A stretch of 64,000 nt of DNA from Natrialba hulunbeirensis JCM 10989 (GTDB lineage: Archaea > Halobacteriota > Halobacteria > Halobacteriales > Natrialbaceae), in assembly GCF_000337575.1 (NCBI RefSeq), contig NZ_AOIM01000026.1, positions 6,103-70,102 on the forward strand, read 5' to 3'. Every line of letters starts with the position of its first letter. Position 1 is the first letter of the stretch. Below the pieces are notes generated by a model. The model was not told the DNA's origin and ran no database searches. It was given only the letters and a program-made list of their open reading frames with translations. Position numbers and translations under genes: made by a program. Shown here one piece after another: positions 32,269 to 53,433 of this stretch.

Positions 32269-32323
32269 ACCTGTCTAGTCACTCGCACCGACCGAGAGGT
32301 TCGTGTTTCCATACGGCCAGGGG

Positions 32324-32331: not shown

Positions 32332-32353
32332 CTGACGTGTGCCAACTGCCGGT

Positions 32354-35988: not shown

Positions 35989-38322
35989 TTACATCGAATC
36001 TGGACCCGCAAGAACAGTATCCTCGCCAAGAACCGCCTCACCCATCGCGAACGTCCGCGTCTGGAGTGCGCTGTTGAGCCCGAGAAACGTCCGGTCGCCG
36101 AGAACGAACTCATCGTCGAGTGCAAGGACCCGCGCGTCGACGTGTGCCGGTTTCTCCGTCTCGACGATCGTCTCGATGGCAGCCCGTTCGGCCGCTGAGT
36201 CGACGGGGCCACAAAAAAGAGCGAACGACCGCTCACCAGCCAGCATCGAGCCGTACTCCCGCTCGACGACAGCGCCGTCAGCCCGATCGAAATCCGTCGC
36301 GTCGAAGAAAAAGAGCCGATGACCGGTTTCGAGGTCCCCACCAGGGTGACTCGAGTACGTGTTGGAATCGGACACCCCGGTCGTCGTGGCCGACTCGTCC
36401 GCCGTCGCCGATCGGTCGTCGTTGGGTCGCGTGTGGGAGGCGGGTTCGGGGACGCCATCACGTGGATTCGCGTGCCGAAGGTAGAGTTCGAGCGTTTCGC
36501 GAAGTCCGGCTCTGGTACCCCGTTTCTGGTACAGTTCAGGCGCTCGTGCCAGGTACTCGCGACGGGCGCTTTCGGGCCAGTCGCGGTACTCGTCTGCGGC
36601 GAGCCAGTCCTCTAGCCAGGCGAGCGACTCGCTGGGAACCCCGTCCGGATCGAAGTAGCGAGGAAGCTGTTCGATCTCGGACTCGATGTCGACGAACGAC
36701 GTTTCGAACGTCGAGAGATACCGTTCGAGAAACTGTGCCGATCGGTCGTCGTTCTGGTAGAGTTCCGGCAGGTATCGGAGATAGGACTGACGGGGACAGT
36801 AGGCGGTTACGGCGTCGATTCGCGGCGAAGCGGTTGGCGTCCCGACGAGTTCGACGGCGACGTAGAGGTACCGGCCGTTCGCGTCGCGCAGAAGGATGTC
36901 CTCGGGGTCGATTTCGTCGACGAGCGTCCACGTCGTCTCGGCGTGCCTGGCGAGTTCTCGGCGTGCCGTTTCCTGCCAGGACCGAACGGTGGTCGTCTCG
37001 AGTTGCCCGTCTCTGTCCGCGAGTTGGGCGGCGGATCTGCTCGCGAGTTCCCACACCGAGTCGACGCCGATGGATTGCAGGGTCGAACGGGCCGTTTCCG
37101 CGAGTGCATCGAGTTCGGGCTGGGTTGTGTGATCACCGTGGTGGCTGTTTTGGCCGTCTGTACTAGTTTCGCTGTCTTCGCCGCTTGTGCTATCTTCACC
37201 GTTTGCGCTATCTTCACCGGTTTTCCTGTCTTCGCCATCGTCGCAGTCGAACGGGAGGACAGTTGGCTCGTTCGTCGCGAAGTACCGAAGCCGGACCTGC
37301 GTGCTCGCAGACGAGCGTGCGAGATCAAGCGCGAGACGATGCCAGGAGATATCGTCGACGCCGGCATCGTACCGGTGAAACGCCAACCCGACGTGGCGAT
37401 CACGGTGTGGGTGAGCTGCCACAGTCTGGCGTTCCTGGAGGGCACAACAGATGCGCCGATCACCGACCAGCGCATAGAAGACGCGCCGATCGCTGTGGCT
37501 GAGTGGCCGACTAATGAGTCGTCGACAGCGCCCCTCGAGTTCGTGGCGCTGTTCGAACTCGCCTGCGGTCTCGTCCCACTCGAAGAGCCCATGCCAGGAT
37601 CCCCGTTCGCCGTGGACCGTTCCCGCGAGGACGAGCGAGCCACGTGGTGCAGCGATTGCAGTCGGAACGAATCGGGTGCCTTCGATCTCGAACGCGTCCG
37701 TAGAGAGTGGGTAGGAGTCGGTTCGAACCTCGCGTTCGCCCTGGAAGAGTCGAATTGTCGGCTCGTCGTCGACCGTATCGAGGACGTACAGCAAATCGTC
37801 GGCGACTGCGATATCGACCGGTGAGCGGACCCACCAGTCGACCGTAAGCTCCTCGGTCGTACCGAGACAGGCGATGCGTTCGTCGCCGTCGAGGACGTAG
37901 ATCGTGCCGTTATCGAAGGTGAGTTCGACCGGTGCTGCGATCGGTGACTGGAGCGCTCCAGTCTCGTTTCGAAGCCGCGGTGAAACCGTGACGATTCGTT
38001 CGTCGTCCGCTCCCGCGACGAAGACACGACTCTCACTGGCACAGATAGCCCGGGGCTCGTCGAGCGACAGGTCGGCACTATCGAGCAACCGCTGGCGCGA
38101 GTCAGTTCGTGGATTGTACTGTGAGAGACGCCCGGCGGCATCGAGCGTGTAGAGCATCCCGGCTGGATCGACGGCAAGATCGACGACGGACTCACCGAGC
38201 GTCGACTGCTGTATCGACGCCGTTCGTGCAAGGGTGAGTCCCCCGTCTGTAACGTCCGTCTGATCGGTGATCCACTCGGTCCAATCGGCCTCACTGACCG
38301 TCGTTGCGTACGAGAACGTCAT
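35989..38322 (-). CDS. Injection-system baseplate tail protein: beta-propeller fused to P2 gpI-like domain
   Basis: A 777-residue protein, last in the injection-system operon. Residues about 1-340 contain repeated strands of NHL/beta-propeller style (LAVDPAGMLYTLDAAGRLSQYN, ICASESRVFVAGADDERIVTV). A Gly-Glu-Asp-Ser repeat linker follows (about 365-395). Residues about 530-650 match the phage tail protein I / Afp12-like domain (YLRYLPELYQNDDRSAQFLERYLSTFE, LAWLEDWLA, LYQKRGTRAGLRETLELYL). gpI proteins sit at the baseplate periphery and hold fibres; the propeller may bind a target or partner. It overlaps the upstream gene by four bases. Confidence 0.82.
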   Translation of the reverse strand: MTFSYATTVSEADWTEWITDQTDVTDGGLTLARTASIQQSTLGESVVDLAVDPAGMLYTLDAAGRLSQYNPRTDSRQRLLDSADLSLDEPRAICASESRVFVAGADDERIVTVSPRLRNETGALQSPIAAPVELTFDNGTIYVLDGDERIACLGTTEELTVDWWVRSPVDIAVADDLLYVLDTVDDEPTIRLFQGEREVRTDSYPLSTDAFEIEGTRFVPTAIAAPRGSLVLAGTVHGERGSWHGLFEWDETAGEFEQRHELEGRCRRLISRPLSHSDRRVFYALVGDRRICCALQERQTVAAHPHRDRHVGLAFHRYDAGVDDISWHRLALDLARSSASTQVRLRYFATNEPTVLPFDCDDGEDRKTGEDSANGEDSTSGEDSETSTDGQNSHHGDHTTQPELDALAETARSTLQSIGVDSVWELASRSAAQLADRDGQLETTTVRSWQETARRELARHAETTWTLVDEIDPEDILLRDANGRYLYVAVELVGTPTASPRIDAVTAYCPRQSYLRYLPELYQNDDRSAQFLERYLSTFETSFVDIESEIEQLPRYFDPDGVPSESLAWLEDWLAADEYRDWPESARREYLARAPELYQKRGTRAGLRETLELYLRHANPRDGVPEPASHTRPNDDRSATADESATTTGVSDSNTYSSHPGGDLETGHRLFFFDATDFDRADGAVVEREYGSMLAGERSFALFCGPVDSAAERAAIETIVETEKPAHVDARVLALDDEFVLGDRTFLGLNSALQTRTFAMGEAVLGEDTVLAGPDSM
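37165..37236 (-). repeat. Four 18-base in-frame repeats encoding GEDS-type hexapeptides
   Basis: The coding strand gives four tandem hexapeptides beginning GED (GEDRKT, GEDSAN, GEDSTS, GEDSET). They form an acidic linker between the propeller half and the tail-protein half. Confidence 0.7.
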
Positions 38323-40346
38323 GCGTTGTACCCTCCATCGTCAGTTGTCCGAAGATCGACACTGACTGTCTCGACGGTGAACAGCGATGTCTCGTCGATC
38401 GAGATCACCCGTCCATCGAGTGCTGTCCCGCCGTAGGCAGTCATCGAGACATCCGAAATCTGGTCGATTGCATCGACTGATTCGATCACCTCGATAAGGT
38501 CCTCGCTCTCGAGTGTGCGTCCGAACGGCCACCCCGACCCGTCGTACCCGTACAGCGGGTGCAGATACGATTCGACTGCCTCAGTGATCGCCGCCTCGTA
38601 TCCGCCACCGGTGTATCGCGGACGGGTTCGGCCAGTCACGTCCAACTCGAGTCGGACGTACTGTGGACCGGTCACCCGTACGCGGTCGGTTAGCAGCGTC
38701 CGCTCGCGGAGATGCCGATAAATCTCCTCGAGAAAGCCCTCACTCGGTTCCGGACTCGGGACGTCGACCGGTGCGTAGGGGACAACGACAACGGTCGTAC
38801 CCTCGCTCTCGACGACGACGTTCGTCCGTCCGATTCTGAGGCCCGGCGTGCGCGAAACGAGCGCCCGGTAATCGTCCGCCGTCACTGCCCGGTGTGGACG
38901 GCGTCGGTCGCGTCTGGCCCGTCGTAGTGCATCCGCGACGCTCTCGCGGTCGGTTCCGCCCGTCGCCGAGCCAAGGGGTGAGACGTCGATATCGGTTACG
39001 GAGACGTCATCGGCCGGGCCAGGGCCGTCGACCGTACTCGAGTCGGTGAGCCGCCAGACTGCGCTGTCGGAAACGTTGCCTGCGGTGCCACCGCCGGCGA
39101 CGTAGTCGGCGGTGATCGTCGCATCGGGGTCGGGAACGCGCCCGGAGATGCCGTCGCCGAACGTAATGTGGCCGTGCGTACGGTCGAGGACGTAGTGTGG
39201 GTCGTTCGGTCCTGAGGCGACGAAGTCTGGTACTTCGACGAACTGCTCGCCGTCGACGCGAACAGATGCCGACAGAACGGGAGTGTGGTCGACGGCGTAC
39301 GTCTGGCCGTCGAGGATCGGTTCGGTGTCCGTACTCCGTCTCCCCGTCGCGACAGCGCCGCCAGCAGTGCTCGCGCCGGCACCAATCGGCGAAAGCTGTT
39401 CGCCGGTGATCGAGACGCTGTGGCTGGCTGTAACGACGTTCGTCCTGATCGCATCGAGCTGTGGCGGGAACTCGTAGTCTGGCGTATCGACGCGACAGCG
39501 GAGCCAGACTGATCCGTCCTCGAGTTTGATCGGCGGTGTCTCAAGGCGACTATCACTGGCCGATCGGGAATGATCGCGACCGTTGGGAATCGTTTCGCCA
39601 GTGACGAGTTCGAGATGGCCGTCTCGATACAGCGCGTTTGTCTTGTCGACGGTGACCGAGAGGGGCTGCCAGTGGTTTGTTTCCGGATTTCGATACTCCC
39701 AGGTCAGCTCGACAGACGGCGAGAACGTGGGTCGGTCGTCAGCGCTGGGAGTCGGATCAGGAAGGTTGTCGTCGTGATACGCGACTGCGAGCGTGAGGCG
39801 GTCGGCGTTCGCGAACGGATCGCGGTCGAATCCGAGGTAGACACAGGCATCCTGGTCGACGGTGTCGCCGAAGGGACGATAGAACATACCGTCGGTCTGG
39901 TTTGCCTTCCGGTGATCGGTCGTCCCCGTCTGGTCGACTGTCATCACGCGGTCGATGCTGGCAGCTGTCAGCGTCAGTTCGTGATCGGTCTCGAACTGAA
40001 AGACGCTCTCCGTTCCATCCGTAACCGCCATCGAGCTCCCTGCAGGAAGTCGCATACCGGCCACATCGCCTGGCGGATCGAGCCGTATCCGGGCCGTCGC
40101 CGGCGTCGGCAGGCGGCGTTCGTAGCCGAGCAGCCGCAGATACGCTTCCCGATGCTCGTCAGTGATCTGGTCTAGCTGATAGGTGTGTGTCTCGGTGAGC
40201 CAGGCGAGAACCTCGAGAATCGTAATCCCCGGATCGTGCGGGTTGAAATCGGTCCACTCACTCGAGTACGCCGGAATGAGTGTGGTCGCCTGCTCGAGCA
40301 GTTCGTCGTACTGTTGGTCGTCGAGTTCCGGTATGTCCAGTCCCAT
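38319..40346 (-). CDS. Baseplate J-family protein of the injection system
   Basis: A 675-residue baseplate protein. MGLDIPELDDQQYDELLEQATTLIPAYSSEWTDFNPHDPGITILEVLAWLTE at the N-terminus and YRALVSRTPGLRIGRTNVVVE with RLELDVTGRTRPRYTGGGYEAAITEAVESYLHPLYGY near the C-terminus match the gpJ/Afp11-type wedge proteins. The frame stays open to 40505 through a Thr-Arg repeat coded by a hexamer tract. The family-typical MGLD start at 40346 is chosen instead. It would form the baseplate wedge together with the larger paralogue upstream. Overlaps the tail protein gene by four bases. Confidence 0.84.
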   Translation of the reverse strand: MGLDIPELDDQQYDELLEQATTLIPAYSSEWTDFNPHDPGITILEVLAWLTETHTYQLDQITDEHREAYLRLLGYERRLPTPATARIRLDPPGDVAGMRLPAGSSMAVTDGTESVFQFETDHELTLTAASIDRVMTVDQTGTTDHRKANQTDGMFYRPFGDTVDQDACVYLGFDRDPFANADRLTLAVAYHDDNLPDPTPSADDRPTFSPSVELTWEYRNPETNHWQPLSVTVDKTNALYRDGHLELVTGETIPNGRDHSRSASDSRLETPPIKLEDGSVWLRCRVDTPDYEFPPQLDAIRTNVVTASHSVSITGEQLSPIGAGASTAGGAVATGRRSTDTEPILDGQTYAVDHTPVLSASVRVDGEQFVEVPDFVASGPNDPHYVLDRTHGHITFGDGISGRVPDPDATITADYVAGGGTAGNVSDSAVWRLTDSSTVDGPGPADDVSVTDIDVSPLGSATGGTDRESVADALRRARRDRRRPHRAVTADDYRALVSRTPGLRIGRTNVVVESEGTTVVVVPYAPVDVPSPEPSEGFLEEIYRHLRERTLLTDRVRVTGPQYVRLELDVTGRTRPRYTGGGYEAAITEAVESYLHPLYGYDGSGWPFGRTLESEDLIEVIESVDAIDQISDVSMTAYGGTALDGRVISIDETSLFTVETVSVDLRTTDDGGYNA

Positions 40347-40350
40347 GCGT

Positions 40351-40417
40351 CGTATTCGTGTTTGTATTCGTGTTCGCGTTCGTGTTCGCGTTCGTGTCCG
40401 TGTTCGCGTCCGTGTGT
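40351..40417. repeat. Hexanucleotide tract (TTCGTG/TTCGCG type) before the baseplate J gene
   Basis: About eleven imperfect copies of a TTCGYG-like hexamer, directly upstream of the chosen start. Because the unit is six bases, changes in copy number keep the frame. Confidence 0.7.
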
Positions 40418-40571
40418 CTCGCTCACCGTCTATCGGTCGTGTACTGTGTTCGCGATAGTCGCCGTCCTTGCCGTCCTCGTCGTGCTCCCCAGCGCCGCCC
40501 AGCACCTCGATGCCGGCAGGGTCGGCTCATTGCGTCGTCTCCTGCTGTCGACCTCCGACTGCCACCCATCC

Positions 40572-43500
40572 TCAGAACTCCCTCCTCGAATCTCGTCCCG
40601 AGAGCGATGTACTCGAGTCCGACGCCGACTCTGTGGCCACACTACCAGCTGTATCCGACTCTCCCACGGTCACTGACACCTGGTGTGAACCGCTACAGAC
40701 GAGCGTGTCTCGGGGTAATGGCTGGCTGCTGTACGCTGTCAACTCGGACAACAGCCGTCGGTCGGCACCCGTTTCGACGAGCACGCGACACTCGAGTACG
40801 GCTGCCACGTTGTCGATCTCGGCAATGACCGAACTGAGCTGCGCAACAGTCGGAAGCGTGCCAAACGCCCAGCCATCCCCGTCGGCACCCGACAGCGGGT
40901 GAAGGAACGCCTCGAGTCGACGCTGAACCGTTTCCTTGAGCACCGAGACGCTCGTGATTGCTGTTGCCTCCAGTGTTACATCGACCGAGAGGTCGGCATA
41001 GTTCGGGCCGCGAACGACGATCCCCGTGTCGTCTGCGGCGACGAGCGATGCCGGCGCGCGTTCGGTCAGTGTTTCCCGAACACGGTGTTTGAGCGCGAGC
41101 GACGGCACTGGTTTCTCTCGCTCGGTGTGTGGAACGATGAGAACGGGGACCTGTGTGGTGGAACTGCCGGTTGTGGGTGCAAGCGAGGGATCACACGTCA
41201 CTCGTGCGAGTTCTGGGAACTCGGCAGCGGCGACCCGTTCGTAGTCGCTCGCGGTCACTGCCTTGCCGCGGTGTTTGAGACTGTTCGTCGACCGCGAGAC
41301 CAGCGCGTCCGTCGATTCGATGTCGGCACCGCCGTCAGCCGGCAACGGGTTCGATACTGACTCGACTAGTGCGATCGAACTCTTCAGGTCGGTAATCGTC
41401 TCGGCGCCGATGTTACCGTCGCTACCGCCGCCAGTCGTGTACGTCGCTCGGATGTTGTCCTGGCCGGCCGGCGGAATCGCGCCGTGGTCGCCATCACCGA
41501 AGGAAACGAGACCGAGTGTGCGGTTGACGACGTAGTGTCTATCCGCTGGCGTCGAATCGAGAAAGTCCGCAACTGCGTGCCAGCGCACCCAGAAGGCGGT
41601 TGGCTCACCGCGGGCGTCGTACTCCGTCGTGACCGCATCGGGTCGCTCCGCTATGAGGCGACGGCGTTCACTCGCCGACAGCGTCGACAGTTCGTCGACC
41701 CAGACCTCGATATCGATCACGGGTGCGTGTGAACAGCGAACCGACTGCTCATGTGACCCATCGCTCGAGCCGAGCAGTTCCTCCTCGATGGTGACGGTGT
41801 TGTACGCCCACTGCGTGTTCGGATACAGTCCCTCGAGAACCGGCGGCCTACTGGTTCGATCGGTGGGAACACCTGCTGGTGGCCCATCGTCAGCATGTGT
41901 CGCTGTACTCGAGTCACTCGAGTCGTCCCCACTCACGTCAGCAGACCCCGGTACAGACTTCGTAGCAGGGTCAGTCCCGTTGTCAGTGTCGAACGGAACG
42001 GGAGCATTCGAGGCTCTGTCACCTGCTTGCGTCTCGAACTCGTCTTTCGTCACTCGCGCTCGTATCCAGTGGCGTTCGTGTCCGAACAACTCGACCGCAC
42101 TCGTCGAGCCGGGGACGGTCACTGTCACGACACCACGCTCAGTCAGGCCACCTGTCCGGTCGAGGACATCGAGTTTCGACCACGAGCAGCTAGCGGATAC
42201 ATGATCGTCGCCGGCACGCCGAACGCCGTCACAGTACTCCCACTCGATTCCCGGATCGAACGACCGTGGATACGTCGTATCCTCGACCGTGACGAACAAC
42301 GACAGCGGACCGTTCTCGAGTACGTCGTCGAAACCGAGGTACAGCGTCTGCTGGTCGTCGGGCACGTCGACGAACGGCACGATCGAGTCCGGTCGGTTCG
42401 AGAGGTCGGGGCTGAAGGTCGCGTTGTTGTACCGGAAGACCGTTTCAGCGGGCTGGCTCCCGCGGTCGTACTGGACGGATACGTCGCCGAAGGCTGGCGG
42501 GTCGGGTTCGTCCGTGATCGTTCGACTTCCATCGCGTGTCACGTCGAACGACGGCTGGCCGTAGTTCCCGCTTACCAGTCGTGACCGGATCCAGACGTTG
42601 TCGTGGCCGGACACTGTTGTCGACGCGATATCCTCGGGTACCTCAAACCGGACGGTTCCGGGCGAGGTGAGCGCTGCAGTCCCGTCTTCGACGCCGTCGA
42701 GACGCGTCCAGCCGTCGCCGTTCCAGTACTCCCAGGAGAGGCGGGGCGGACCACCGAGCACGCCGATACCCGCACCCGCCGACTGCTCCGAGCCGCCGCG
42801 AGCAGCCGACGGCGTCGACCCGGCCACGACGCCGTCGGTGTCCGTCCCCGTATCCGAAGCGTCCGATCCCCCAGATGCATCATCGCCAACCCTGGTGCCA
42901 TCACCATTGCGATCACCGGTTCGGTCGGGGTTCTCAGAGGGTCCATCCTCACTGTCGTCGCCAGCACTGGTGCCAGTGCCACTGCTATCGCCATCGACAA
43001 CCACACTCCCAACCGGGGCAAACTCGAGATCGACCACGCCGCCCGGCTTCGTAAACGCCTCCTCGCAAGCCACGTAGAACGTCGCCGGTGGCTGTGGAAT
43101 CCGTCCGAACGGCTTGATCGACCCGTCGGCCGGAGATAGCGGCACGTCGTTCGACAACAGCATATCCGGTTCCATCCCGCCATCTTCGCCGCTACTCGCT
43201 GCGTGCAACGACACAGATTCGAGCGCCGCCGACACGACAGTCGTCTCGTCGGCGAGTCGACAGCGAACCCAGCGACTGTCACACTCGTTGACCGCACACT
43301 CGAGTGTCTGTCCGGGAAGCCGGAACGTCCGTTCGGCGACGGTGTCGTCGGTGGTCGTAGCCTCGCGTCGTGAGAGGTCGGACTCGAGTTGTTCCTGGAG
43401 CGCTTCGACGCCGGCGTCTTCGCCGAGGTGAAGTCCGTCACCGACTCGTTCGAGTCGATGCCAGCCCGCAGTTCCGGTCGCGTCTTCGCCGTAGTACTCC

Positions 43501-44135
43501 CAGACTGTGGCATCGAAGAACTCCTCTGCGGTGGGTGCGGTTGCGGTCGCGGCGGCGTCTAACTGTATCGAAATCGACAACGAGGAGCCGGCTGCGAGCG
43601 TGAGGACGGTTTCGTGGCCCAGATAGAGGACGTGTGATTGGCGGTTGTCGCCGACGAACAGCGTATTCGATTCCGTCTCGAGGATGTCGCTGTGGTCGAC
43701 GATCCGGTCGGTCTGTGGGTCGACGCCGACGACGGTAGTGAGCCTGGCTGGCGTCGCCTCGAATCCGGCGTCCTGTGGGAGTTCGAACAGCTGTGAGTCG
43801 TCGGGACCCGCAGCCGCGACGGCCTGCGTTCCGCCCGGAATCGGGACGTTGCGATCGAGATCAGTCGAGACGCTAACCGTAAGCGGCGTGCGGGCTGCCT
43901 GCGGTGGCCGCCGGTCGAAATCGAGCGCGTCGAGGAACACGAGGCGGTGTTTCTCGGGGACCTCGTTCAGCCGGTTCCAGACACCGGATTCGAACGTCGA
44001 GAAGAGACGAAGCAGTGTTCGACCGACGTCATCGGAGTGAGGATCCCACTCGTCAGTGTAGGCGTCTGCACGGGCAAGCAGGGTTTCAAAGCGCTCTGCC
44101 TGCTCTCGGTCGTCGATCGTCGGCCCCTCACGCAT
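40572..44135 (-). CDS. Large putative baseplate assembly protein of the injection system
   Basis: A 1,187-residue protein of the putative baseplate assembly family. The N-terminus has REQAERFETLLARADAYTDEWDPHSDDVGRTLLRLFSTFESGVWNRLNEVPEKHRLVFLDAL, then sugar-binding-like repeats ending in WEYWNGDGWTRLDGV and WIRSRLVSGNYGQP. The C-terminus carries the gpJ-like ALVSRSTNSLKHRGKAVTASDYERVAAAEFPEL with ETVQRRLEAFLHPLSGADGDGWAFG. An acidic Gly/Ser/Asp/Thr-rich insert (about 378-450) splits the middle. It pairs with the smaller J-family protein in one operon. It is longer than usual because of the inserts. Confidence 0.85.
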   Translation of the reverse strand: MREGPTIDDREQAERFETLLARADAYTDEWDPHSDDVGRTLLRLFSTFESGVWNRLNEVPEKHRLVFLDALDFDRRPPQAARTPLTVSVSTDLDRNVPIPGGTQAVAAAGPDDSQLFELPQDAGFEATPARLTTVVGVDPQTDRIVDHSDILETESNTLFVGDNRQSHVLYLGHETVLTLAAGSSLSISIQLDAAATATAPTAEEFFDATVWEYYGEDATGTAGWHRLERVGDGLHLGEDAGVEALQEQLESDLSRREATTTDDTVAERTFRLPGQTLECAVNECDSRWVRCRLADETTVVSAALESVSLHAASSGEDGGMEPDMLLSNDVPLSPADGSIKPFGRIPQPPATFYVACEEAFTKPGGVVDLEFAPVGSVVVDGDSSGTGTSAGDDSEDGPSENPDRTGDRNGDGTRVGDDASGGSDASDTGTDTDGVVAGSTPSAARGGSEQSAGAGIGVLGGPPRLSWEYWNGDGWTRLDGVEDGTAALTSPGTVRFEVPEDIASTTVSGHDNVWIRSRLVSGNYGQPSFDVTRDGSRTITDEPDPPAFGDVSVQYDRGSQPAETVFRYNNATFSPDLSNRPDSIVPFVDVPDDQQTLYLGFDDVLENGPLSLFVTVEDTTYPRSFDPGIEWEYCDGVRRAGDDHVSASCSWSKLDVLDRTGGLTERGVVTVTVPGSTSAVELFGHERHWIRARVTKDEFETQAGDRASNAPVPFDTDNGTDPATKSVPGSADVSGDDSSDSSTATHADDGPPAGVPTDRTSRPPVLEGLYPNTQWAYNTVTIEEELLGSSDGSHEQSVRCSHAPVIDIEVWVDELSTLSASERRRLIAERPDAVTTEYDARGEPTAFWVRWHAVADFLDSTPADRHYVVNRTLGLVSFGDGDHGAIPPAGQDNIRATYTTGGGSDGNIGAETITDLKSSIALVESVSNPLPADGGADIESTDALVSRSTNSLKHRGKAVTASDYERVAAAEFPELARVTCDPSLAPTTGSSTTQVPVLIVPHTEREKPVPSLALKHRVRETLTERAPASLVAADDTGIVVRGPNYADLSVDVTLEATAITSVSVLKETVQRRLEAFLHPLSGADGDGWAFGTLPTVAQLSSVIAEIDNVAAVLECRVLVETGADRRLLSELTAYSSQPLPRDTLVCSGSHQVSVTVGESDTAGSVATESASDSSTSLSGRDSRREF

Positions 44136-44174: not shown

Positions 44175-44573
44175 TCAGCCATCACCCTCCGTGATGTGAA
44201 ACGGGTACACCATGTTCGAGAGGCTGTTCGTCGACCGAACGTGATACTCGATTTCGATCAGGATACGGTTCGGGTCATCCGTGGCAGTTCGTGCGTCGAC
44301 GTCGACGATATCGATTCGGGGCTCCCAGCGAACGAGCGCCTCGCGGACGCTGCTCTCGATCAGGTTCAATGTCGCCGGCGAGGCCGCCGAGTAGACGTGA
44401 TCGTGGATCTCACAGCCAAACTCCGGGCGCATGATCCGCTCGCCCTTTGCCGTCCCGAGGATGATCCTGATCGCCTCCTGAATGTCGTCGTCGGCACTCG
44501 AAAGTTCGATGTCGCCGCGGTGGTCCGATGTGACCGGATGCTGCCAGCCGGTGCCGAGGAATTCGTCCGCCAT
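44175..44573 (-). CDS. gp25/gpW-like baseplate protein
   Basis: A 132-residue protein with the GPW/gp25 lysozyme-like baseplate fold: FLGTGWQHPV, SADDDIQEAIRIILGTAKGERIMRPEFGCEIHDHVY and the C-terminal strand ILIEIEYHVRSTNSLSNMVYPF. The RIM-PEFG motif is diagnostic. In contractile systems gp25 joins sheath to baseplate, so its presence implies a sheath encoded elsewhere. Located between the PAAR gene and the large baseplate protein, as in Afp/PVC-type clusters. Confidence 0.9.
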   Translation of the reverse strand: MADEFLGTGWQHPVTSDHRGDIELSSADDDIQEAIRIILGTAKGERIMRPEFGCEIHDHVYSAASPATLNLIESSVREALVRWEPRIDIVDVDARTATDDPNRILIEIEYHVRSTNSLSNMVYPFHITEGDG

Positions 44574-44576: not shown

Positions 44577-44867
44577 TCACCCGATGTGAACGCTTGGACA
44601 GCCCGCCACGATCGTGTTTGGTGGGCCGTTCTCGATGATTGTATCGCCCATTCTCGCCGCTGGCATCTTGTTGATCAGAACGCTGGTGCTACCGACCGCC
44701 ACGGTCCCGCCGACGTGTGGGACTGGGCCCGAAGAGAGCGGACAGGTATGCACGTCTGCGAGTGCACGCCAGGCCGGACGCTTTCCGATCAGAACGTTCG
44801 GGCTCGCTGTACCGGTCAACGGCGTGCCGTGTGCAGTCGCATCGCCGAGTCGTGCTGCTGGTTTCAT
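44577..44867 (-). CDS. PAAR-domain spike tip protein
   Basis: A 96-residue PAAR protein: PAARLGDATAHG, a central GKRPAWRALADVHTCPLS, and PAARMGDTI. PAAR repeats fold into a sharp zinc-bound cone that caps the spike trimer and can carry effectors. Here no extension is fused, so cargo would have to be non-covalent or encoded elsewhere. It begins 94 bases after the gpV-like gene and ends three bases before the gp25 gene. Confidence 0.93.
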   Translation of the reverse strand: MKPAARLGDATAHGTPLTGTASPNVLIGKRPAWRALADVHTCPLSSGPVPHVGGTVAVGSTSVLINKMPAARMGDTIIENGPPNTIVAGCPSVHIG

Positions 44868-44961: not shown

Positions 44962-45699
44962 TCAATTGAGCTGGATAATCGCACCTCGAATCGTCAACGG
45001 TCCCGTCGCGTCGATCCCCATCAACCCGCTGCTCGAGATGTCGAGACGCGCCTTACTCGAGAGATCGATCGTATTCTTGCTCGCAATCTCGACGGACGTG
45101 CCGCCGTCGATATCGACCGTCTTCGAGCCGTCGATCCGGACCGTCGGCGCGGCCAACTCGAGTTCATCGTCGGCGGTGATCGAGACGGTACCCGACGAAC
45201 TGTCGAGGGTAAGTTCGTTTTTTCCGCTGTCGTCACGAATCGCGATCGTCTCGGTGTTCTTCGAGTCGTCGACGACGATTTCGTGACCACCGCTAGTCTG
45301 GATGGTGACACTGCCGTCCTCGCCGTCGTCGAACGCGATCGTGTGTTCGGACCGAGAGCGGATTTCACGAACGTCGTTGGTTCCGTCGTTCTGCTGGGGT
45401 GGCTGTTGTTTGCCGTTCCAGAGCGAACCGACGACGTAGGGGTTGTGAATATCGCCGTTCTCGAACGCGACAAGCACCTCGTCGTCTACTTCGGGGAGGA
45501 AGTAGGCGCCGTATTCGTCGCCGGCCATCGGTGTCGCTACGCGCGCCCAGTAGCTTTCGTCGTCGGCGTCGCGCCAGGGGAACTGCAGTCTGACGCGGCC
45601 GAGGTCCTTCGGGTCTTCGTTGTCGGTGACGATACCGACGACGACACCCTGAATGCCGCCATCGGCGGTTTCACCGTCGAAGACGCTCGGTCGGCTCAC
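44962..45699 (-). CDS. gpV/gp5-like spike (OB-fold plus beta-helix)
   Basis: A 245-residue spike half. The OB-fold (about 15-120) has GVVVGIVTDNEDPKDLGRVRLQFPW, ARVATPMAGDEYGAYFLPEVDDEVLVAFENGD and PYVVGSLWNG. It is followed by a repetitive beta-helical rod (VTIQTSGGHEIVVDDS, AIRDDSGKNELTLDSSSGTVSITAD, TVRIDGSKTVDIDGG). This is the VgrG C-terminal half, made as a separate protein here. It starts with ATGA overlap with the gpD-like gene, so both halves are translated together and the PAAR tip sits on the rod. Confidence 0.92.
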   Translation of the reverse strand: MSRPSVFDGETADGGIQGVVVGIVTDNEDPKDLGRVRLQFPWRDADDESYWARVATPMAGDEYGAYFLPEVDDEVLVAFENGDIHNPYVVGSLWNGKQQPPQQNDGTNDVREIRSRSEHTIAFDDGEDGSVTIQTSGGHEIVVDDSKNTETIAIRDDSGKNELTLDSSSGTVSITADDELELAAPTVRIDGSKTVDIDGGTSVEIASKNTIDLSSKARLDISSSGLMGIDATGPLTIRGAIIQLN

Positions 45700-46721
45700 G
45701 ACGGCACCTCCATGGCCTCGAACGTGGTCCGATACCCCGAGGCACCCATTCGGTGGGTTGCCTTCGTGAGATGGTACGTTCCCGAAAAGCGGGTTCCGAG
45801 TTCGGCGAATCGAACCGTCTCTCCCGCACGCAGGTCAGGGATACCATCGGTTTCGCCGTGGGCCTGGACGATCCCGTCCGAAAACTGGTTATACTTCGTC
45901 TCTGCGATCCGTTCGGCTTCGTCGCGTGACATAGCTGGGACTCTGAAAACCTCCTTGTGTTTCGCGTTGGAACTGCCCGCAGTCGTGATGATCTCCTCTT
46001 TCTTTCCGACGTTCCACGACCGAACCTCGACTTCGTGGGTCTGACTCTGCTGTGTGATCTCGCCAAAAAAGTCGTGCAGTGCCTCCCCGTACCAGAGTTC
46101 GTCGATCGGATCATTGGTCACCGCTGACGAGCGCGGGACAAACCTGACGGTATCCCGTTCGGCGTAGAACTCGAACCCGTACGTCGAGGCGAGATCGTGG
46201 ACGAACCGGTAGTCGCTACAGTCGTTCTGGATGAGTTTCTCGCGTTTAATATCTGCACCCTCGACGACGACCGACGAGAACGGATACGACGAGAGGACGT
46301 CCTCAACAGCCGATCCAATCGTCGTCTCCGACCAGGAATCCGACCGGGTTCCCTGCATCAGCTCCCAGAGCAACCCGTAGCCAGCAACCTGCACCGACGG
46401 GCCGCGGTCGACGGTAAATTCGCTGGTGATCGACTGGATCGTCCCGGCTAACAGCGGTGTGAGCTGTCCGTCGTCGCCATACCCCATCGAAATCTCGACG
46501 TCGGTCCCGATCTCGAAGTCGTCCCACGAGAGCCCGGCAAACTCGTCCAGTTCCTCGTCAAACGGATAGTTCAGCGCAAACGAGAAGCGGTCTGCGCCCT
46601 CGAACGTCGTCTCGACCACGAGATCGGCGATTCGACCGCCCGGCTCCTGGAACGTCTGTTCGCCGATCTGAACCGTAAACCGCGGCGAGTACCGCGGATG
46701 GTTATCCAGTTCGGGACTCAT
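45696..46721 (-). CDS. gpD-like hub protein (phage late control / VgrG N-terminal half)
   Basis: A 341-residue protein of the phage late-control gene D family. FTVQIGEQTFQEPGGRIADLVVETTFEGADRFSFALNYPFD, ISMGYGDDGQLTPLLAGTIQSITSEF and VAGYGLLWELMQG mark the barrel. YRFVHDLASTYGFEFYAERDTVRFVP and the ending GTYHLTKATHRMGASGYRTTFEAM are typical. It forms the central hub that threads the tube. It overlaps the spike gene by four bases. It and the spike protein correspond to a split VgrG/Afp8. Confidence 0.9.
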   Translation of the reverse strand: MSPELDNHPRYSPRFTVQIGEQTFQEPGGRIADLVVETTFEGADRFSFALNYPFDEELDEFAGLSWDDFEIGTDVEISMGYGDDGQLTPLLAGTIQSITSEFTVDRGPSVQVAGYGLLWELMQGTRSDSWSETTIGSAVEDVLSSYPFSSVVVEGADIKREKLIQNDCSDYRFVHDLASTYGFEFYAERDTVRFVPRSSAVTNDPIDELWYGEALHDFFGEITQQSQTHEVEVRSWNVGKKEEIITTAGSSNAKHKEVFRVPAMSRDEAERIAETKYNQFSDGIVQAHGETDGIPDLRAGETVRFAELGTRFSGTYHLTKATHRMGASGYRTTFEAMEVPS

Positions 46722-46746: not shown

Positions 46747-47418
46747 TCATAGCGGCGGTAACTCGAGTGTCTCGCCCGGCGTGATCGCACGCGGGTTGTC
46801 GATATCGTTCTGGTCTGCGATCGTCCGCCAGTGAGCGGAATCGCCGTACTCCTCCGCGGCGATGAGCCAGAGGGTATCGCCCTCGGTCACCGTCCAGGCT
46901 TTGGTCTTGTCCGTCGATTCGGGCGAAACCTCGGACTTGTGGTAATCTGCCGTCTTGAACTCGGTGAAGACGATCGAGACACGGGCGCGAATGGGAACGC
47001 CGCTTGGCAGAAACTTGGTGAACTGCTTATTTGCGCTCTGCACGAGAGCCGTAAAGTCGATGCCGTCACCCCAGACGAATCGACAGACCGGTGGCGCGTG
47101 GAGTTCACCGTCGACTGCCAGCAGCATGTCGATATACTTCGTGTACTGTTCGCGGACATCGACCGCTGTAGCGTCCACGTCGTCCGACTCGAGTGCATCG
47201 GTGGTATCGAAGAACAGTTCGGTCGAAAGCGTCTCGGCGTTGCCGTCGACGAACTGCATGATCGAGGCCCCCGAACCAGTCGCTTTCATCTCACCGTAGT
47301 TGACGCTCTTTTCGAGCGTGTAGGAGTTCGGATTGAACTTGCACTCGATGGTTTCGCCCTGATGCTTGCCGTTGACGATCATGATCTGTGCCTTCTCGAG
47401 CTTGCCGCCGGTTGCCAT
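46747..47418 (-). CDS. LysM-type hub adaptor (Afp7-like)
   Basis: A 223-residue protein. The N-terminal adaptor (about 1-165) has ECKFNPNSYTLEKSVNYGE, TELFFDTTDALES, REQYTKYIDMLL and APPVCRFVWG. A LysM motif follows at about 172-222 (AWTVTEGDTLWLIAAEEYGDSAHWRTIADQN, PRAITPGETLELPPL). Afp7/gp53-type proteins link tube and hub in contractile injection systems; LysM may bind a glycan or serve structurally, since haloarchaea lack peptidoglycan. It abuts the 1,406-residue gene: one stop, next start within a few bases. Confidence 0.9.
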   Translation of the reverse strand: MATGGKLEKAQIMIVNGKHQGETIECKFNPNSYTLEKSVNYGEMKATGSGASIMQFVDGNAETLSTELFFDTTDALESDDVDATAVDVREQYTKYIDMLLAVDGELHAPPVCRFVWGDGIDFTALVQSANKQFTKFLPSGVPIRARVSIVFTEFKTADYHKSEVSPESTDKTKAWTVTEGDTLWLIAAEEYGDSAHWRTIADQNDIDNPRAITPGETLELPPL

Positions 47419-50400
47419 TTACAGTCCCCTCCGTTCGCGTTCGATCCGTTGTTTGCGGTCGAGTCGGCGGTAGAGCCGTTCGACGATTCGGTCCACGTCG
47501 GCATCGAACTGGACGGACTCATCACCCCAGGGGATGTCGGCGAGATCACGCCGGGCGTGGTCGGTGGCGCGGTCGTGACTGTGGGTCTGGTTGTGGGCGT
47601 GACCGTGGCCGTGGTCATGACCGGAACGATGACCATACCCAGACCCAGAATCGTGTCCGCGACTGTCTCTGCCAGCAGCGTGGTTCCGTGTCGAACCAGT
47701 CGCATGGTCTGGCAAGCCAGTCTCTCGACGCTGGCCGCGTCCGCCGACACCGTTCACACCACTGTCCGGTCCGGATGGGAGTGACGCTGCCGGAGACGAC
47801 GGCCGACTTCTCGACCCGTGTGCGTGTCGCGACTGGTCCTCGTGGGACCCGTCCCGTGCAGACGACTGTGAAGGAGACTGCGAATTAAGGCCCCCCGTCC
47901 GTGGAGAACGAGTCGATGTTCTCCCCGTACCACCACGCGTTCGACCACTTGCTCGTGATCGGTCGGTCCCGATGTACTGAGGTGTGCCTGATCGGGTGGG
48001 TGCATGCGAGTGCTCGTTGGCGCTGTGACCGTCATCGATGCTGGCAGCGGTGGCTGTCTCACGCTGTGGTGTCGCTCCCGAACGGCCGTCGTGGCCTGCG
48101 ACACCAGACGTTGCCGCGTCGGCAGCGGTTCCCGGTGTCGCAACACGATAGACGAGTGCCGGCCGACTGCTACTCGAGTTCATTGATTTGTTCTCTGATG
48201 GGCTGGTAGTTCGTTTTTCTCCATTTGTTTTATATTTAATCATTCCATCGTTACCATTCTGAGCGTGGGTCCCCGATGTCGCTGACTCAGTGGTTGGTGG
48301 ATCGAGGTCGACGAGTCTCGTCGGTACAGACAACGTCGGTTGCGTCGTAGACGACTTTCTCCCCATCAGCGGCGGCACACGCTGTGACGAACGAGAAGTG
48401 ATAGTCGAGTCAGTTCTCACCTCGTCAGCGTCGATTGATTTGATTGACTCACCAGACGTACCTGACTCGTCTAACTCGTCTACCTCACGAGAGGAGGCAC
48501 CCATCCGTTCGGGCGAGGAGCGAAGGGACACAGAATCGGTCGATCGACTGGGAGTCGACGGCTGTCGAACGAAGTGTGTATTGAGAGAGGTCTGCCGACC
48601 AGTACCGAATCGGTTCCTGGCAGCCTGTCGGTTGCTGGGGTCGCCACCGCGCTGATGGGGAGCCACCACTGCCTCCTGTGATCGACTACCGAGTGCTGTA
48701 TCAGGAAGACGTGCAGAACTACTGGAGGCTGATCGGGTGTCGCCGGACCAGCCAGGTTCTGAGGCTCGACGCCGACGTGAATCGAACCTGGCACTCTCTG
48801 TTGTCGCGGCTGAGCGGTTGGCGCTGTGGTTCGACCACATCGCGTGCTGGGGGGAACCAATAGTCGACTGTGGCTCACGACCAGTACGACTACCGTGGTC
48901 AGTCCAGCGAGCGGTCGACGGCATCCGTGCCGCTGTCAGTTGGTGTCGGTGGAGTACTGATGGCAGACGGGCCGTCATCGGATCCGTAGTGGCCGTTTCA
49001 GCAGTGGACTGCCGCGCGTCTGTACCCGACTCAGCACGTTGTTCTCGAGTTGGTGGAGATGACGTGCGTCCACTGGGTCGAGTCTGTTCGGATCGGACTC
49101 GAGTGGGGTCGGCTGTGCGAGCAGTGCCAGAGAGTGGGGTGTTCGACGTGTGACTGTGAGTGTGAGTGTGAGTTGAAGAGGTCTCTGACGTTTGGGTTGG
49201 AGGTGAGGTCAGAGTCGGAGCTGGGGTTTGAGTCCGAGTTGGAGCCAACGAACCGTGCGGAGAACCGTTCCGATAGTCGAATTCGTGACCGCCAGTGTGG
49301 ATCAGTTCCGAGACAGGCACGGACGCCGAATCTGCGTGGGTAGTCGGGCTCGTCTCGTCAGCGGTCAGACGGGCTGCTGGTGGTCCACTCGAGTTGACCG
49401 TGACCGAGCGACGACTGTCGGTTGCTGGCGTTGCAGCAGTCACGGCAGTATCTGGTGTCGGTGGTCTCGCATCCGGTGTGTGTAATCGGGCCTGTGTCGG
49501 CGTCTGCCCCTGCGAGTCGTCCGGTCCTCTGGACTGTACCGGCCGCTGTGTGAGGCGTCTGGGTTGTTCCGAATCCAGTGTACGTGACTGCGAGACCGGT
49601 TGCGGTGGACGCGACGAGGGGGACGAGCGAGGTGAGCGGGAGATGTGAAACGAACGAGACACACGAGAAGAAGCAAGTTGGCTGATCGCCCCCGTCGTCG
49701 TACTCCCACGGCGAACGAACGCGAGGACGGTGCTCCCAGCGTCCAAGCTGTGTCGTCCAGCCGGGCCGGCCGAGTTCTGTCTCTCGCCAGTTGTGTCTCG
49801 TGTACCGACGATGTCGCCCGTATCAGCGCCAACTTCGTCATCGCTTGTCGTGATCGAACGATCCCGGCGTGGTACCGACGGAGTCGGCGCTGCAGAGCGC
49901 TGTTGACTGCGGCCCGGTCCGATGGACTGTGTACGTGACGACAGTGACTCGGTCTGGGAAACCGAAGTGATAGCCGGACGTGCGCTCCACCCGCCCTGTC
50001 TTTCCGCACCATCGTGCGGTGGTAGATCACCAGCAGAGGCCAGAGAGCGAGTCGAACCGCCTGCAGTCACCTGTTTCAGATCGGTACCGGTCTGAACAGA
50101 GTAGGTGCTATCATCGACGGATTCTGGCCCCGAAAGGCTGCGTTGATCGCCCCGATACCAACGTTCACCGCGGAAACGGAACTGCTGCTGGGACCGGGTA
50201 CGCGAGACATGCGTACGCAGCGAATCGCCAGTTGGGACTCGGCGAGACGAGGTCGGCACAAGCGAGTCGGACTCGCCAACGGAAGGATAACGTACTGACC
50301 GTGCAGTGTTCGAGTATCGGGACCGGTCGGCTGAACCCGCTCTGTCTGCCCGCACCGTCGTGCGGGGCTGGATTGTGCTGACAGCGGCTGTGGACGCAGT

Positions 50401-51639
50401 TGCGGTCCCACCGCTGCCCGCTGTTGGCTCGACACCGTCACGACCGGGTGACCCAGCAGTTACGAAACGGCGAGGTGTTCGTACGTGATCGTCAGCCGGA
50501 GAGTCATCTATCGGCTGCACCCGCGAGTACGATCGAACAGCGCGTTTCCCTGTCGGCAGATCGATGTGGTGCTGTCCTGTCACCGACCGAACGAGCGAAA
50601 GCTGTGCTATCGAACCTGCACCGCCAGGCGGACGGTCGAAGGGACGACCGGTCCGGTCGCCTGTCGGCATCGAGTGCTCGGTCGGTACAGAGTGGACATC
50701 TACTCGAGTTGACCGTCCGACGGAGGCGCTGATACGGTCGGCCGACGAGCGCGTGTGTGTGAAACGAGCGGAACCGGGTAGTCGGTGTGGCTCCGACTGA
50801 GGCAGATACTGGGTGTCTCCCGACCGGACTCGAACGGCGTCGACCCGTGTGTGTGCCGGAACCGGAGCGACATGAGCGTCAGAGGAGGCTTTATCGTCGT
50901 CATCGTGGACCCGGGAAGTGCTGTGAAGCGGTGTCTGAAGACCGACAAAGTCGCTCCCTGTGGCTGCCACACGCTTTCGCGTTGGCGCAGTCGTATTGTG
51001 TGAAGGGGCGCTTCCGACCGGTGATATCGACTCAGCTAGCCAGGTTGAAGCGCCGGTGGGAGCGACCGTCGGATCGGCTGGAATGCCGTCAACAGAGAAC
51101 GTCCACCGGAAATGAGGTGTGCGCTCGGATGGGCTGGTGGCATCCGGTCTCGTCCCAGCAACCCCCGAAGGCGAGACGACTGTCTCACGAGTTGTGGACA
51201 CGGCTGCAGCGTCGTTCTCGTGGATAAACGACGGAGGGCCTGTCGGCGTAGTCGGCTCTCGGTCGAGTCCAGTAGCGCCAGTGGGGGGCGAGTGTCCGTG
51301 GGCAGAGTGTTTGTGAGGGCCACGATGGTGGTGAAGGGGGACGGAGTGACGAAAGACGAGACCGAGCGCACCGTGACGAGTGAGAATCCGATGTGCAAAC
51401 CGATCGCCGAGCCGTGCTGGATCCAGCGTTCCAATCGGTCGCTGTCGACGGTCGAGACCATCGATCCCCAGTCTGTGCAGTCTGTGAGGTCTGTGTGACT
51501 CTCGATCGGTTCCTCCTCGAGTTGGTGTCGACTCCCGTGCCGTCAGGTTCGTTCGCATCTCGTGGGGAGCCCTGTTGTCGGCTCTCTCGGTGATATCGCG
51601 TACCGTGGGTTCGATCGTCGGTAGTGATGGGTCAGTCAT
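47419..51639 (-). CDS. 1,406-residue low-complexity protein with conserved C-terminal baseplate motif
   Basis: First gene of the injection-system operon. Most of the chain is predicted disordered: Ser, Thr, Arg, Pro, Gln and His-rich, nearly neutral to basic, unusual for a halophile. It has stretches such as THTHTHSHT and a late His/Asp-rich patch (HDHGHGHAHN). Only the last 40 residues look structured, with FDADVDRIVERLYRRLDRKQ and IERERRGL, a helical motif seen in short proteins before the LysM adaptor in related clusters. No other frame is a better gene here, but codon third positions are less GC-biased than in neighbours. A GGAGG at 51650-51654 supports the start. Confidence 0.7.
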   Translation of the reverse strand: MTDPSLPTIEPTVRDITERADNRAPHEMRTNLTARESTPTRGGTDRESHRPHRLHRLGIDGLDRRQRPIGTLDPARLGDRFAHRILTRHGALGLVFRHSVPLHHHRGPHKHSAHGHSPPTGATGLDREPTTPTGPPSFIHENDAAAVSTTRETVVSPSGVAGTRPDATSPSERTPHFRWTFSVDGIPADPTVAPTGASTWLAESISPVGSAPSHNTTAPTRKRVAATGSDFVGLQTPLHSTSRVHDDDDKASSDAHVAPVPAHTRVDAVRVRSGDTQYLPQSEPHRLPGSARFTHTRSSADRISASVGRSTRVDVHSVPTEHSMPTGDRTGRPFDRPPGGAGSIAQLSLVRSVTGQHHIDLPTGKRAVRSYSRVQPIDDSPADDHVRTPRRFVTAGSPGRDGVEPTAGSGGTATASTAAVSTIQPRTTVRADRAGSADRSRYSNTARSVRYPSVGESDSLVPTSSRRVPTGDSLRTHVSRTRSQQQFRFRGERWYRGDQRSLSGPESVDDSTYSVQTGTDLKQVTAGGSTRSLASAGDLPPHDGAERQGGWSARPAITSVSQTESLSSRTQSIGPGRSQQRSAAPTPSVPRRDRSITTSDDEVGADTGDIVGTRDTTGERQNSAGPAGRHSLDAGSTVLAFVRRGSTTTGAISQLASSRVSRSFHISRSPRSSPSSRPPQPVSQSRTLDSEQPRRLTQRPVQSRGPDDSQGQTPTQARLHTPDARPPTPDTAVTAATPATDSRRSVTVNSSGPPAARLTADETSPTTHADSASVPVSELIHTGGHEFDYRNGSPHGSLAPTRTQTPAPTLTSPPTQTSETSSTHTHTHSHTSNTPLSGTARTADPTRVRSEQTRPSGRTSSPPTREQRAESGTDARQSTAETATTDPMTARLPSVLHRHQLTAARMPSTARWTDHGSRTGREPQSTIGSPQHAMWSNHSANRSAATTESARFDSRRRRASEPGWSGDTRSASSSSARLPDTALGSRSQEAVVAPHQRGGDPSNRQAARNRFGTGRQTSLNTHFVRQPSTPSRSTDSVSLRSSPERMGASSREVDELDESGTSGESIKSIDADEVRTDSTITSRSSQRVPPLMGRKSSTTQPTLSVPTRLVDLDPPTTESATSGTHAQNGNDGMIKYKTNGEKRTTSPSENKSMNSSSSRPALVYRVATPGTAADAATSGVAGHDGRSGATPQRETATAASIDDGHSANEHSHAPTRSGTPQYIGTDRSRASGRTRGGTGRTSTRSPRTGGLNSQSPSQSSARDGSHEDQSRHAHGSRSRPSSPAASLPSGPDSGVNGVGGRGQRRETGLPDHATGSTRNHAAGRDSRGHDSGSGYGHRSGHDHGHGHAHNQTHSHDRATDHARRDLADIPWGDESVQFDADVDRIVERLYRRLDRKQRIERERRGL

Positions 51640-51654: not shown

Positions 51655-51710
51655 GCAGCTGGGTCCACTGTCCGGATTGGACGCCGAAAGACAACCGTTT
51701 CATCTGGGAT

Positions 51711-51720
51711 GTATTATATA
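51711..51720 (-). promoter_or_regulatory. Probable promoter of the injection-system operon
   Basis: TATATAATAC on the coding strand, inside an AT-rich patch. Transcription would start near 51690 and leave a leader of about 50 bases before the ATG at 51639. Confidence 0.5.
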
Positions 51721-51775
51721 AGTATATGTCTCGAAATATATTAATTATTGCTTCTACTGTCGGGCACAAGAATCA

Positions 51776-52960
51776 TTACTCACGTGGTGCTGTGCCAGCA
51801 ACGGGTGGCTCCCCCTCGGAGTTTCCTGCTGTGGGGTCGGTTGCTGATTCAAACGAGTTCGTCGCTGTGCCGGTCATCGGTTCGGAGCGCCCCGTCGTAG
51901 TCGGTTCGCCCTCGTCTGTTGGAGCAGTGACCGACCACTGGAGCGAATAGATCGTCCCCGTTTTCGTCAGAAGCGTCGGTGTTTCACCCCCTCGTTTGAG
52001 ACTGTAGCCAAGCGGCAACGCAACAGAATCGTCGTTCGGTTCGATCGAGAACGATTCGGGGATTTCGAACGAACAGACGGCACCCGGCTTGAGTGTAACG
52101 TTGACGCCGAGTCGATACAGATCGAACTCGGTGTCACGGATGCGAGACTCCGAGAGATCGATCGCTGAAGCAGAATCGTTCCTGATGGCGAGTTCGCGCG
52201 TCGACCGAGAGTCGGGAGTTCTGAGCGCAACGATAGTGAGTTCAGTTCGTGCACTCGTTGCGGCCGCGTACCGGTTATAGACGATAATCGTCGTTCCGAT
52301 CCAGAGTACGAGTGCAGTCGTCACCGCTGCTGCCAGCGGAACGTGACCGCTGTACCAGGTTCCACCGTACCAGAGACCGACACCGCCTGCAACACCGACC
52401 GAGAAGCCGACGATGACGGAGAGAGTTCGACTCTCCAATCCCTTCGTATGCGCATAGCCCGTCCGGACCGACGAAAACGAGGTGTCAGCGGTTGCACTCC
52501 GTCGATCCTGTAGCAGTAACAGGCCGGCCGCAAGCGGCCAGGTGACGAGAAAGGTGAGAACGACGGCAGTAGCCGTGAGCTCGGTTACGAGCGTCAGCGA
52601 ACTGAGCGCCAGAGCGGCGACAACGGCACAGAGACAGCCTACGATCACCGACTGGGCCCAGGTCGAGTACTGTCGCCAGTGGGCGTCGATCGTCGCTCGA
52701 TTTGCTCGGTAGAGAAGCAGACAAACACATGCGAGCACACTGCAGGCGAACGAGACGAGAAAGAGCACCGTCTCGGAACCAAGCGATTGTGAGACGACCG
52801 GCGGTGACGTCGACGGAACCCGCGTTGTGAGTCCCGTGAGACGCCCAATGGCGATCGTAACCAGTCCGAACGCGATCCCACAGCCGACAACGAGCAAAAC
52901 CGGATACAGCCGCTTTCGGATCCCGCTACCGATGAATGATCGAAGTGATTGCAGCAGCAT
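51776..52960 (-). CDS. Polytopic membrane protein with lamin-tail-like domain, candidate injection-system anchor
   Basis: About 394 residues with six predicted membrane helices in the first 235, a beta-sandwich-like segment, and a disordered Thr/Glu/Gly-rich tail of about 55 residues. Counting from the frame start at 52984, helices lie near 27-47, 72-92, 111-131, 137-158, 188-208 and 215-236. The beta segment (about 248-345) has an IRNDSASAIDLSESRIRD pattern like lamin-tail domains. AGGAGGTG at 52972-52979 lies inside that longer frame and points to the ATG at 52960. No family is recognised with confidence. Its position just upstream of the injection-system operon is the only functional clue. 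Confidence 0.7.
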   Translation of the reverse strand: MLLQSLRSFIGSGIRKRLYPVLLVVGCGIAFGLVTIAIGRLTGLTTRVPSTSPPVVSQSLGSETVLFLVSFACSVLACVCLLLYRANRATIDAHWRQYSTWAQSVIVGCLCAVVAALALSSLTLVTELTATAVVLTFLVTWPLAAGLLLLQDRRSATADTSFSSVRTGYAHTKGLESRTLSVIVGFSVGVAGGVGLWYGGTWYSGHVPLAAAVTTALVLWIGTTIIVYNRYAAATSARTELTIVALRTPDSRSTRELAIRNDSASAIDLSESRIRDTEFDLYRLGVNVTLKPGAVCSFEIPESFSIEPNDDSVALPLGYSLKRGGETPTLLTKTGTIYSLQWSVTAPTDEGEPTTTGRSEPMTGTATNSFESATDPTAGNSEGEPPVAGTAPRE

Positions 52961-53433
52961 CACTGTTATTGCACCTCCTGCCATCGCCGGTACGATGAGC
53001 CGATAGCACAGCGACAGTCAGACGACGTATCGGGATCGACAGCGGGCATCGTGCTTGGAACTGACCACCGGCATCGATGCTGACGGTGGACTCGAGCCCA
53101 CCACCGATGTGACCGACACTCGCTCCCCTCGTAGACGTTCATACGAATTGTTTGTTATCCCAACTTTCTCGATCAATTATAAAGGCTCTGATTGAAATGG
53201 GTTAGGAAGGGGCTGTAGTCATATTTACCCTAGAGGAAATGGATACTACGGTGTGTGCTGGCAGGTCGACTACCGACAGCAAACGGTGCACTTGAGTGCC
53301 ACACTACACTGCGCTACGTTACATCACACGATACCACACAGCAAGCACACGGGAGGCAGGTGACACCGCTGTCACGGGGTAACTCGAGTGTCGCTTGTGA
53401 GTATTTACCCGTCGAACGATAACGACTACTTGT
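52961..53433. other. Intergenic region left of the thioredoxin-reductase-like gene
   Basis: No coding frame is convincing. AATTATAAAGG (about 53176-53186) is a TATA-like element readable on either strand, and TATTTACC (53402-53409) lies about 28-30 bases before the ATG at 53434 and suits a leaderless start there. The middle is rich in CAC/GTG steps. Confidence 0.4.

Follow-up and report, generated by a model that had tools for sequence, protein, structure and literature searches.

Background

The plugs Alg6 and Anabaena Cis6 of contractile injection systems (CIS) are trimers in the spike cavity, and their subunits combine a flexible loop with a helix at the C-terminus (PMC8894135, PMC8894136). 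Alg6 is essential, and its loss abolishes the particles (PMC8894135); in Anabaena Cis6, the loop reaches into the tube lumen (PMC8894136). Tape measures are anchored on the spike by their C-terminal helices and have their N-termini at the collar (PMC10996793). In Streptomyces davawensis, Tme, a large effector related to tape measures and about 70% disordered, occupies a comparable gene slot (PMC11126660). In the archaeal type VI secretion system (T6SS) of Halogeometricum borinquense, Hbor_38620 is the putative membrane anchor, and no homologue of the plug (cis6) or the tape measure (cis14) has been reported in the cluster (PMC11566945). In the present study, we analysed a stretch of 64,000 nucleotides from Natrialba hulunbeirensis JCM 10989 (contig NZ_AOIM01000026.1; hereafter, the window) and examined a giant open reading frame (ORF) of 1,406 residues at 47419-51639, on the minus strand, that adjoins the tube-initiator gene cis7. 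Its product is a candidate for both the plug and the tape measure that were not found in the archaeal T6SS.

We found that the giant ORF is translated along its whole length, and that its frame and ends are fixed while the sequence and length of its middle are free. The product is probably a structural part of the CIS that acts at the spike and the tube, in keeping with the structural role suggested in a preliminary description of the locus. From its gene slot and the homology of its C-terminus, there is a somewhat better than even chance that it serves as both plug and ruler in the lumen of a haloarchaeal CIS anchored in the membrane (archaeal T6SS). The chance that it controls tail length is about even.

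Results

The position and length of the ORF were given correctly in the preliminary description, which did not state the strand. No nucleotide separates the giant ORF from the cis7 gene on the same strand. The product had been called a disordered, low-complexity chain rich in His, Thr and Arg. Ser is the most frequent residue (14.2%), followed by Arg (about 12%), Thr (11.7%), Gly (8.7%), Pro (8.3%) and His (4.8%; 68 residues, roughly double the level of the neighbours), and Cys is absent; the emphasis on Arg, Thr and His was justified, but Ser/Arg/Thr-rich is the better label. The disorder itself was confirmed by the Uversky charge/hydropathy measure (0.390 < 0.422) and by AlphaFold2 models of the termini, which contained a single confident helix in the last 110 residues (residues 1374-1404, with 24 residues at a predicted local distance difference test score of at least 90) and nothing else there, and only a weak helix in the first 130 residues. 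The net charge is +36 (169 Arg, 12 Lys, 95 Asp, and 50 Glu), consistent with the near-neutral or basic character proposed earlier, and the seven CIS neighbours are all acidic (-0.07 to -0.11 charge per residue). As had also been noted, the GC content at third codon positions (GC3) is low, 0.57 versus 0.70-0.80 in the CIS neighbours; that at second positions is unusually high (0.64).

Conserved segments are found at both ends of the protein. N-terminal motif 1 (residues 12-18, TVRDITE; family VR[ED]I[SG]V) is encoded at 51586-51606 and motif 2 (residues 67-99, RPIGTLDPARLGDRFAHRILTRHGALGLVFRHS) at 51343-51441, both on the minus strand, as are the low-complexity middle (47521-51342), which is variable in length and unconstrained, and the C-terminal helix (47428-47520). 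The protein ends in DVDRIVERLYRRLDRKQRIERERRGL. Tandem repeats form only tiny arrays in the ORF, and they were rejected as the origin of the length changes for this reason.

In seven close pairs of genomes (nucleotide identity of about 0.85 or more), 69 of 73 internal indels were multiples of three, and substitutions were spread nearly evenly over the three codon positions. Distant pairs (nucleotide identity of about 0.5-0.77) were excluded from the indel test because gap placement is unreliable there. The ratio of nonsynonymous to synonymous substitution rates (dN/dS) in five close pairs was 0.06-0.26 for the last 60 residues, 0.64-0.83 for the middle and 0.13-0.69 for the first 130 residues; that of Cis7 was 0-0.07. 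It is these indels, substitutions and ratios that establish translation over the whole length, with constrained ends and a free middle. The low dN/dS and the predicted helix also bear out the folded, conserved C-terminus of the preliminary description. Its expectation for the alignment of homologues held only in part: the C-terminus is conserved and the middle varies in length, but conservation is not restricted to the C-terminus, since residues about 12-18 and 67-99 are conserved too. Homologues that begin only near 48183, which had been named as evidence against the long chain, did not occur; the conservation of the N-terminal motifs speaks against a translation start there and places it at or close to 51639.

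The baseplate operon of the window shares 85-89% identity with that of N. chahannaoensis, and most of the giant ORF cannot be aligned. We also observed that, at 49243-51639 of the window, the giant gene scarcely aligns with that of N. chahannaoensis and the flanking operon genes are 82-89% identical, owing to either rapid divergence or block replacement.

Using Cis7 as the query against 293 genomes of the order, we obtained a match in 35. A low-complexity ORF of 430-2,291 residues adjoins cis7 in all 35 haloarchaeal loci, with a spacing of 0-20 nucleotides in nearly all of them, and a related C-terminal motif is recognisable in every one (most weakly in locus L066). His is not enriched in these relatives (1-3%). 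The Cis7 of the window is 99% identical to those of Natrialba sp. SSL1 and N. chahannaoensis. In a second collection, the ORF in the cis7 slot has 1,512 residues in N. chahannaoensis and 2,365 in Haloferax elongans, where it lies between the anchor gene and cis7 (L089). The same slot before cis7 is occupied in Paenibacillaceae (complete copies mostly of 1,000-2,500 residues), Nostoc sp. UHCC 0926 (524 residues), Methanothrix (474 residues) and an Olavius-associated delta-proteobacterium (608 residues).

A hidden Markov model (HMM) of the C-terminus built from haloarchaea only matched the proteins of Nostoc (5e-8), Methanothrix (1e-6) and Paenibacillaceae (to 1e-11), and none of the shuffled controls fell below 0.1. 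By sequence comparison, the homology of the C-terminal helix among giants of different phyla, from haloarchaea to Paenibacillaceae and Nostoc, is solid; the proteins of Methanothrix and the delta-proteobacterium share this homologous end. A motif similar to N-terminal motif 2 is seen in Paenibacillaceae and Nostoc without statistical support; the best E value of the haloarchaeal motif-2 HMM against the bacterial giants was 0.036 and was not accepted. On a plasmid of Pseudanabaena sp. ABRG5-3 (L164, 1-4001), a low-complexity protein of 2,531 residues precedes a Cis7-like gene and has a similar C-terminal helix, LTALAQEIYVLLRQRLEIEKERQG.

In the order-level set, we distinguished a long class (more than 1,000 residues; 28 loci) and a short class (fewer than 600 residues; 7 loci). 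The anchor gene lies upstream in 25 of the 28 long loci and in none of the 7 short loci. In the Cis7 tree, the long haloarchaeal forms cluster and the long forms of Paenibacillaceae stand apart, so that the class label needs two changes. From the anchor association and the grouping in the tree, the long class corresponds to the published anchor-bearing clade with H. borinquense and H. elongans. In the window, the gene at 51776-52984 (minus strand) encodes a protein of 402 residues with six hydrophobic segments and a soluble tail of about 165 residues; it matches Hbor_38620 by its topology and the published description, rather than by comparison with the Hbor sequence, and is thus a candidate homologue of this putative anchor. 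Baseplate genes together with such a protein upstream are what characterise the membrane-anchored haloarchaeal CIS.

In haloarchaeal CIS clusters without the anchor, large eCIS_core (DUF4157) proteins are encoded directly upstream of a short cis6-like gene (L059:7261-12300, L103:4740-8132, L156:6878-11314, and L158:7221-11609). Several archaeal eCIS_core proteins carry nuclease-type C-terminal domains (Endonuclea_NS_2 and Tox-SHH) and are candidates for Tme-like effectors. A mutual exclusion of Tme-like effectors and giant forms was considered and dropped, as eCIS_core proteins occur near both classes.

Discussion

The giant shares features with each of the described systems. As with the Cis6/Alg6/Afp6 plugs (DUF5908), its gene lies directly upstream of cis7, and it has a C-terminal helix and a strand-like N-terminal motif; we propose that its disordered chain may be likened to the lumen-reaching loop of Anabaena Cis6. 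Unlike these plugs, it has 1,406 residues instead of the roughly 53-85 of bacterial proteins in this slot and has no match to DUF5908. As with phage and tailocin tape measures (for example, CD1366 of diffocin), a very large ORF, of the largest class, lies immediately before the tube-initiator and hub genes, the C-terminal helix is short and conserved, and the middle varies freely in length. It differs from them in being proline-rich and disordered, in lacking a Pfam or PHROG match, and in the roughly 2-4.6 Å per residue that it would need, compared with about 1.7 Å in diffocin. Tme is likewise mostly disordered and encoded by the largest ORF upstream of the baseplate genes, and it interacts with the spike and the tube initiator; the giant, however, has no DUF4157 (eCIS_core), transmembrane helix or C-terminal nuclease domain. 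The archaeal T6SS of H. borinquense and H. elongans has the same baseplate genes and the same putative membrane anchor as the present locus. It differs in that neither a plug nor a tape measure is reported for the published cluster, and in that the sheath, tube and cap genes of N. hulunbeirensis are on another contig.

From the slot beside the tube-initiator and hub genes, the two conserved ends, the C-terminal helix and the published absence of a plug and a tape measure, we infer a lumenal plug and ruler. Anchored by their C-terminal helices below Cis7, in the cavity of the spike/hub, about three copies would nucleate the baseplate, much as Alg6/Cis6 and the C-terminal ends of tape measures do. 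The disordered, proline-rich and slightly basic chain would then extend up the tube, and the Cis1 rings would polymerise around it. The conserved N-terminal segment may mark the distal end and help the cap to stop growth, so that tail length would follow chain length; on firing, the chain would depart with the tube. The facts as a whole are most simply accommodated by a single protein that does the work of both plug and tape measure; a ruler function is suggested by its position, its architecture and the absence of an alternative. The same slot, ends and helix do not support the earlier view that a tape measure is unlikely; high proline argues only against a helical ruler and not against an extended one.

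The dimensions can be compared with this proposal. The contracted sheath of H. borinquense is long and fairly uniform (220±16 nm), as would be expected from length control, and with 17.09 Å per ring it contains about 129 rings by calculation. Extended tubes generally have about 3.9 nm per ring, which would give about 500 nm for 129 rings. The long-class proteins (1,097-2,388 residues) would span this length at 2.1-4.6 Å per residue, and the helical tape measure of diffocin spans 1,388 Å with 817 residues, or 1.7 Å per residue. A ruler function would thus require an extended and not a helical chain, in agreement with its proline-rich disorder. It is possible, at slightly less than even probability, that the contour length of a stretched-out disordered chain, whose middle evolves near-neutrally, determines how long the archaeal T6SS becomes, plug and tape measure being one protein; judging from the Cis7 tree, the giants would have arisen separately in haloarchaea and Paenibacillaceae, or would have been lost in between.

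Several observations weigh against a plug and ruler. Mass spectrometry of H. borinquense sheaths detected only Cis2 and no giant peptides, and tomography of this species showed no extra density in the lumen (PMC11566945), although averaging might hide a disordered chain. The giants of two genomes whose Cis7 is identical differ in length by 302 residues, which demands a loose length constraint, and the published sheath length comes from one species, H. borinquense. Tape measures are mainly alpha-helical, coiled-coil proteins, and the giant is not. It has no match in DUF5908, the tape-measure Pfam families, PHROGs or the PDB, and comparison of its C-terminus with the short bacterial plug-slot proteins by hhalign was not significant. 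Searches of NCBIfam and Pfam with the giant likewise gave no match, as did a genome-wide scan for DUF5908, in which the controls also failed to register; neither the Nostoc protein nor two short proteins of the plug slot gave a meaningful match in the PDB. Membership in the DUF5908 plugs, the tape-measure Pfam families and the coiled-coil proteins was rejected on these failed tests.

The giant may instead be a plug that sets no length, both of its ends being plug elements (an N-terminal strand and a C-terminal helix) and its middle an enlarged and flexible loop serving to occupy the lumen, to dock cargo or to keep other proteins out of the tube. Short slot proteins whose N-terminus resembles a strand (IRELSV in Iodobacter, compared with VREISV here) and whose C-terminus forms a helix, the loop of Anabaena Cis6 that enters the lumen and the very labile length of the giant all agree with this. 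We regard it as unlikely, though worth serious thought: the profile comparison with short plugs was not significant, and the uniform sheath length and the missing tape measure would be left unexplained. The chance is small that the giant is an injected effector, a cationic disordered chain or pro-protein loaded and delivered into a target cell. A fast-evolving middle and the disordered Tme in the comparable slot of S. davawensis (PMC11126660) would suit such a role, but the giant contains no DUF4157, transmembrane, nuclease or other domain, no recognised immunity gene adjoins it, and the conservation of its termini and of its slot is in keeping with a structural part.

Smaller still is the chance of an external tether, phase-separating scaffold, metal matrix or display arm, roles raised in the preliminary description. 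Disorder and His content are compatible with them, but the C-terminal module adjoins tube-initiator and hub genes in several phyla, the relatives contain only 1-3% His and the window protein no Cys, and no secretion or surface-anchor domain was found; phase separation, metal binding and surface display gained no evidence from our analysis. A spurious or decayed ORF in a non-coding stretch, to which the low GC3 and poor annotation support might point, has practically no chance, being refuted in practice by the frame-preserving indels, and the frame is open in 35 of 35 loci.

If the giant is a plug and ruler, the two parts may have been missed because it has no domain, is of low complexity and is truncated in the annotation of at least one genome. 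On the Haloferax larsenii plasmid NZ_CP078064.1 (L068, 1860-8819), RefSeq annotates only the last 178 residues of a 2,319-residue ORF, and two antisense hypothetical genes are annotated inside it. In H. borinquense, the published cluster is numbered from Hbor_38640 and the anchor is Hbor_38620, leaving one gene number between them; this gene is presumably the giant, and its omission is understandable given an annotation gap of the H. larsenii type. A ruler of this kind would uncouple the control of length from helical structure, and the natural variants of 1,100-2,400 residues would allow a direct test of the ruler hypothesis. With the C-terminal motif, proteins of this type can also be sought in other phyla.

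Genomic context in the window

The genes downstream of the giant, all on the minus strand, are the baseplate half of a CIS. By domain matches, they encode Cis7 (tube initiator, CIS_tube, with LysM; 46747-47418), Cis8 in two parts (the Phage_GPD hub, 45696-46721, and the Phage_base_V spike OB domain, 44962-45699), the gp25-like Cis9 (44175-44573), a Cis11-like Baseplate_J protein (40572-44135), a second Baseplate_J protein (38319-40505) and a Tail_P2_I baseplate protein (35989-38322); a PAAR-like spike tip (Cis10; 44577-44867) was recognised from its sequence (PAARLGD...PAARMGD). The sheath (574 residues), gp19-type tube (155 residues) and Pvc16-type cap (221 residues) are encoded on another contig of the genome, at 9884-14624 on the minus strand (L032); in other haloarchaea, the two halves are separated by a few kilobases to megabases. 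For PhageMin_Tail, the genome gave one sub-threshold match, also on another contig.

The giant gene had been assigned the first position of its operon. It heads the baseplate sub-operon, but the anchor-like gene lies 136 nucleotides upstream on the same strand. Between the two, a TATA-like stretch, acttatataatac, at 51701-51723 (minus strand) is a possible promoter, and an upstream ORF of 23 codons, with a stop codon that overlaps the giant gene's start (ATGACTGA), may encode a leader peptide. Farther along the window, genes for histidine degradation (aromatic amino acid lyase, imidazolonepropionase-like, arginase family, and urocanase) are at 26566-34500 on the minus strand, and a phage-type integrase stands between them and the CIS genes.

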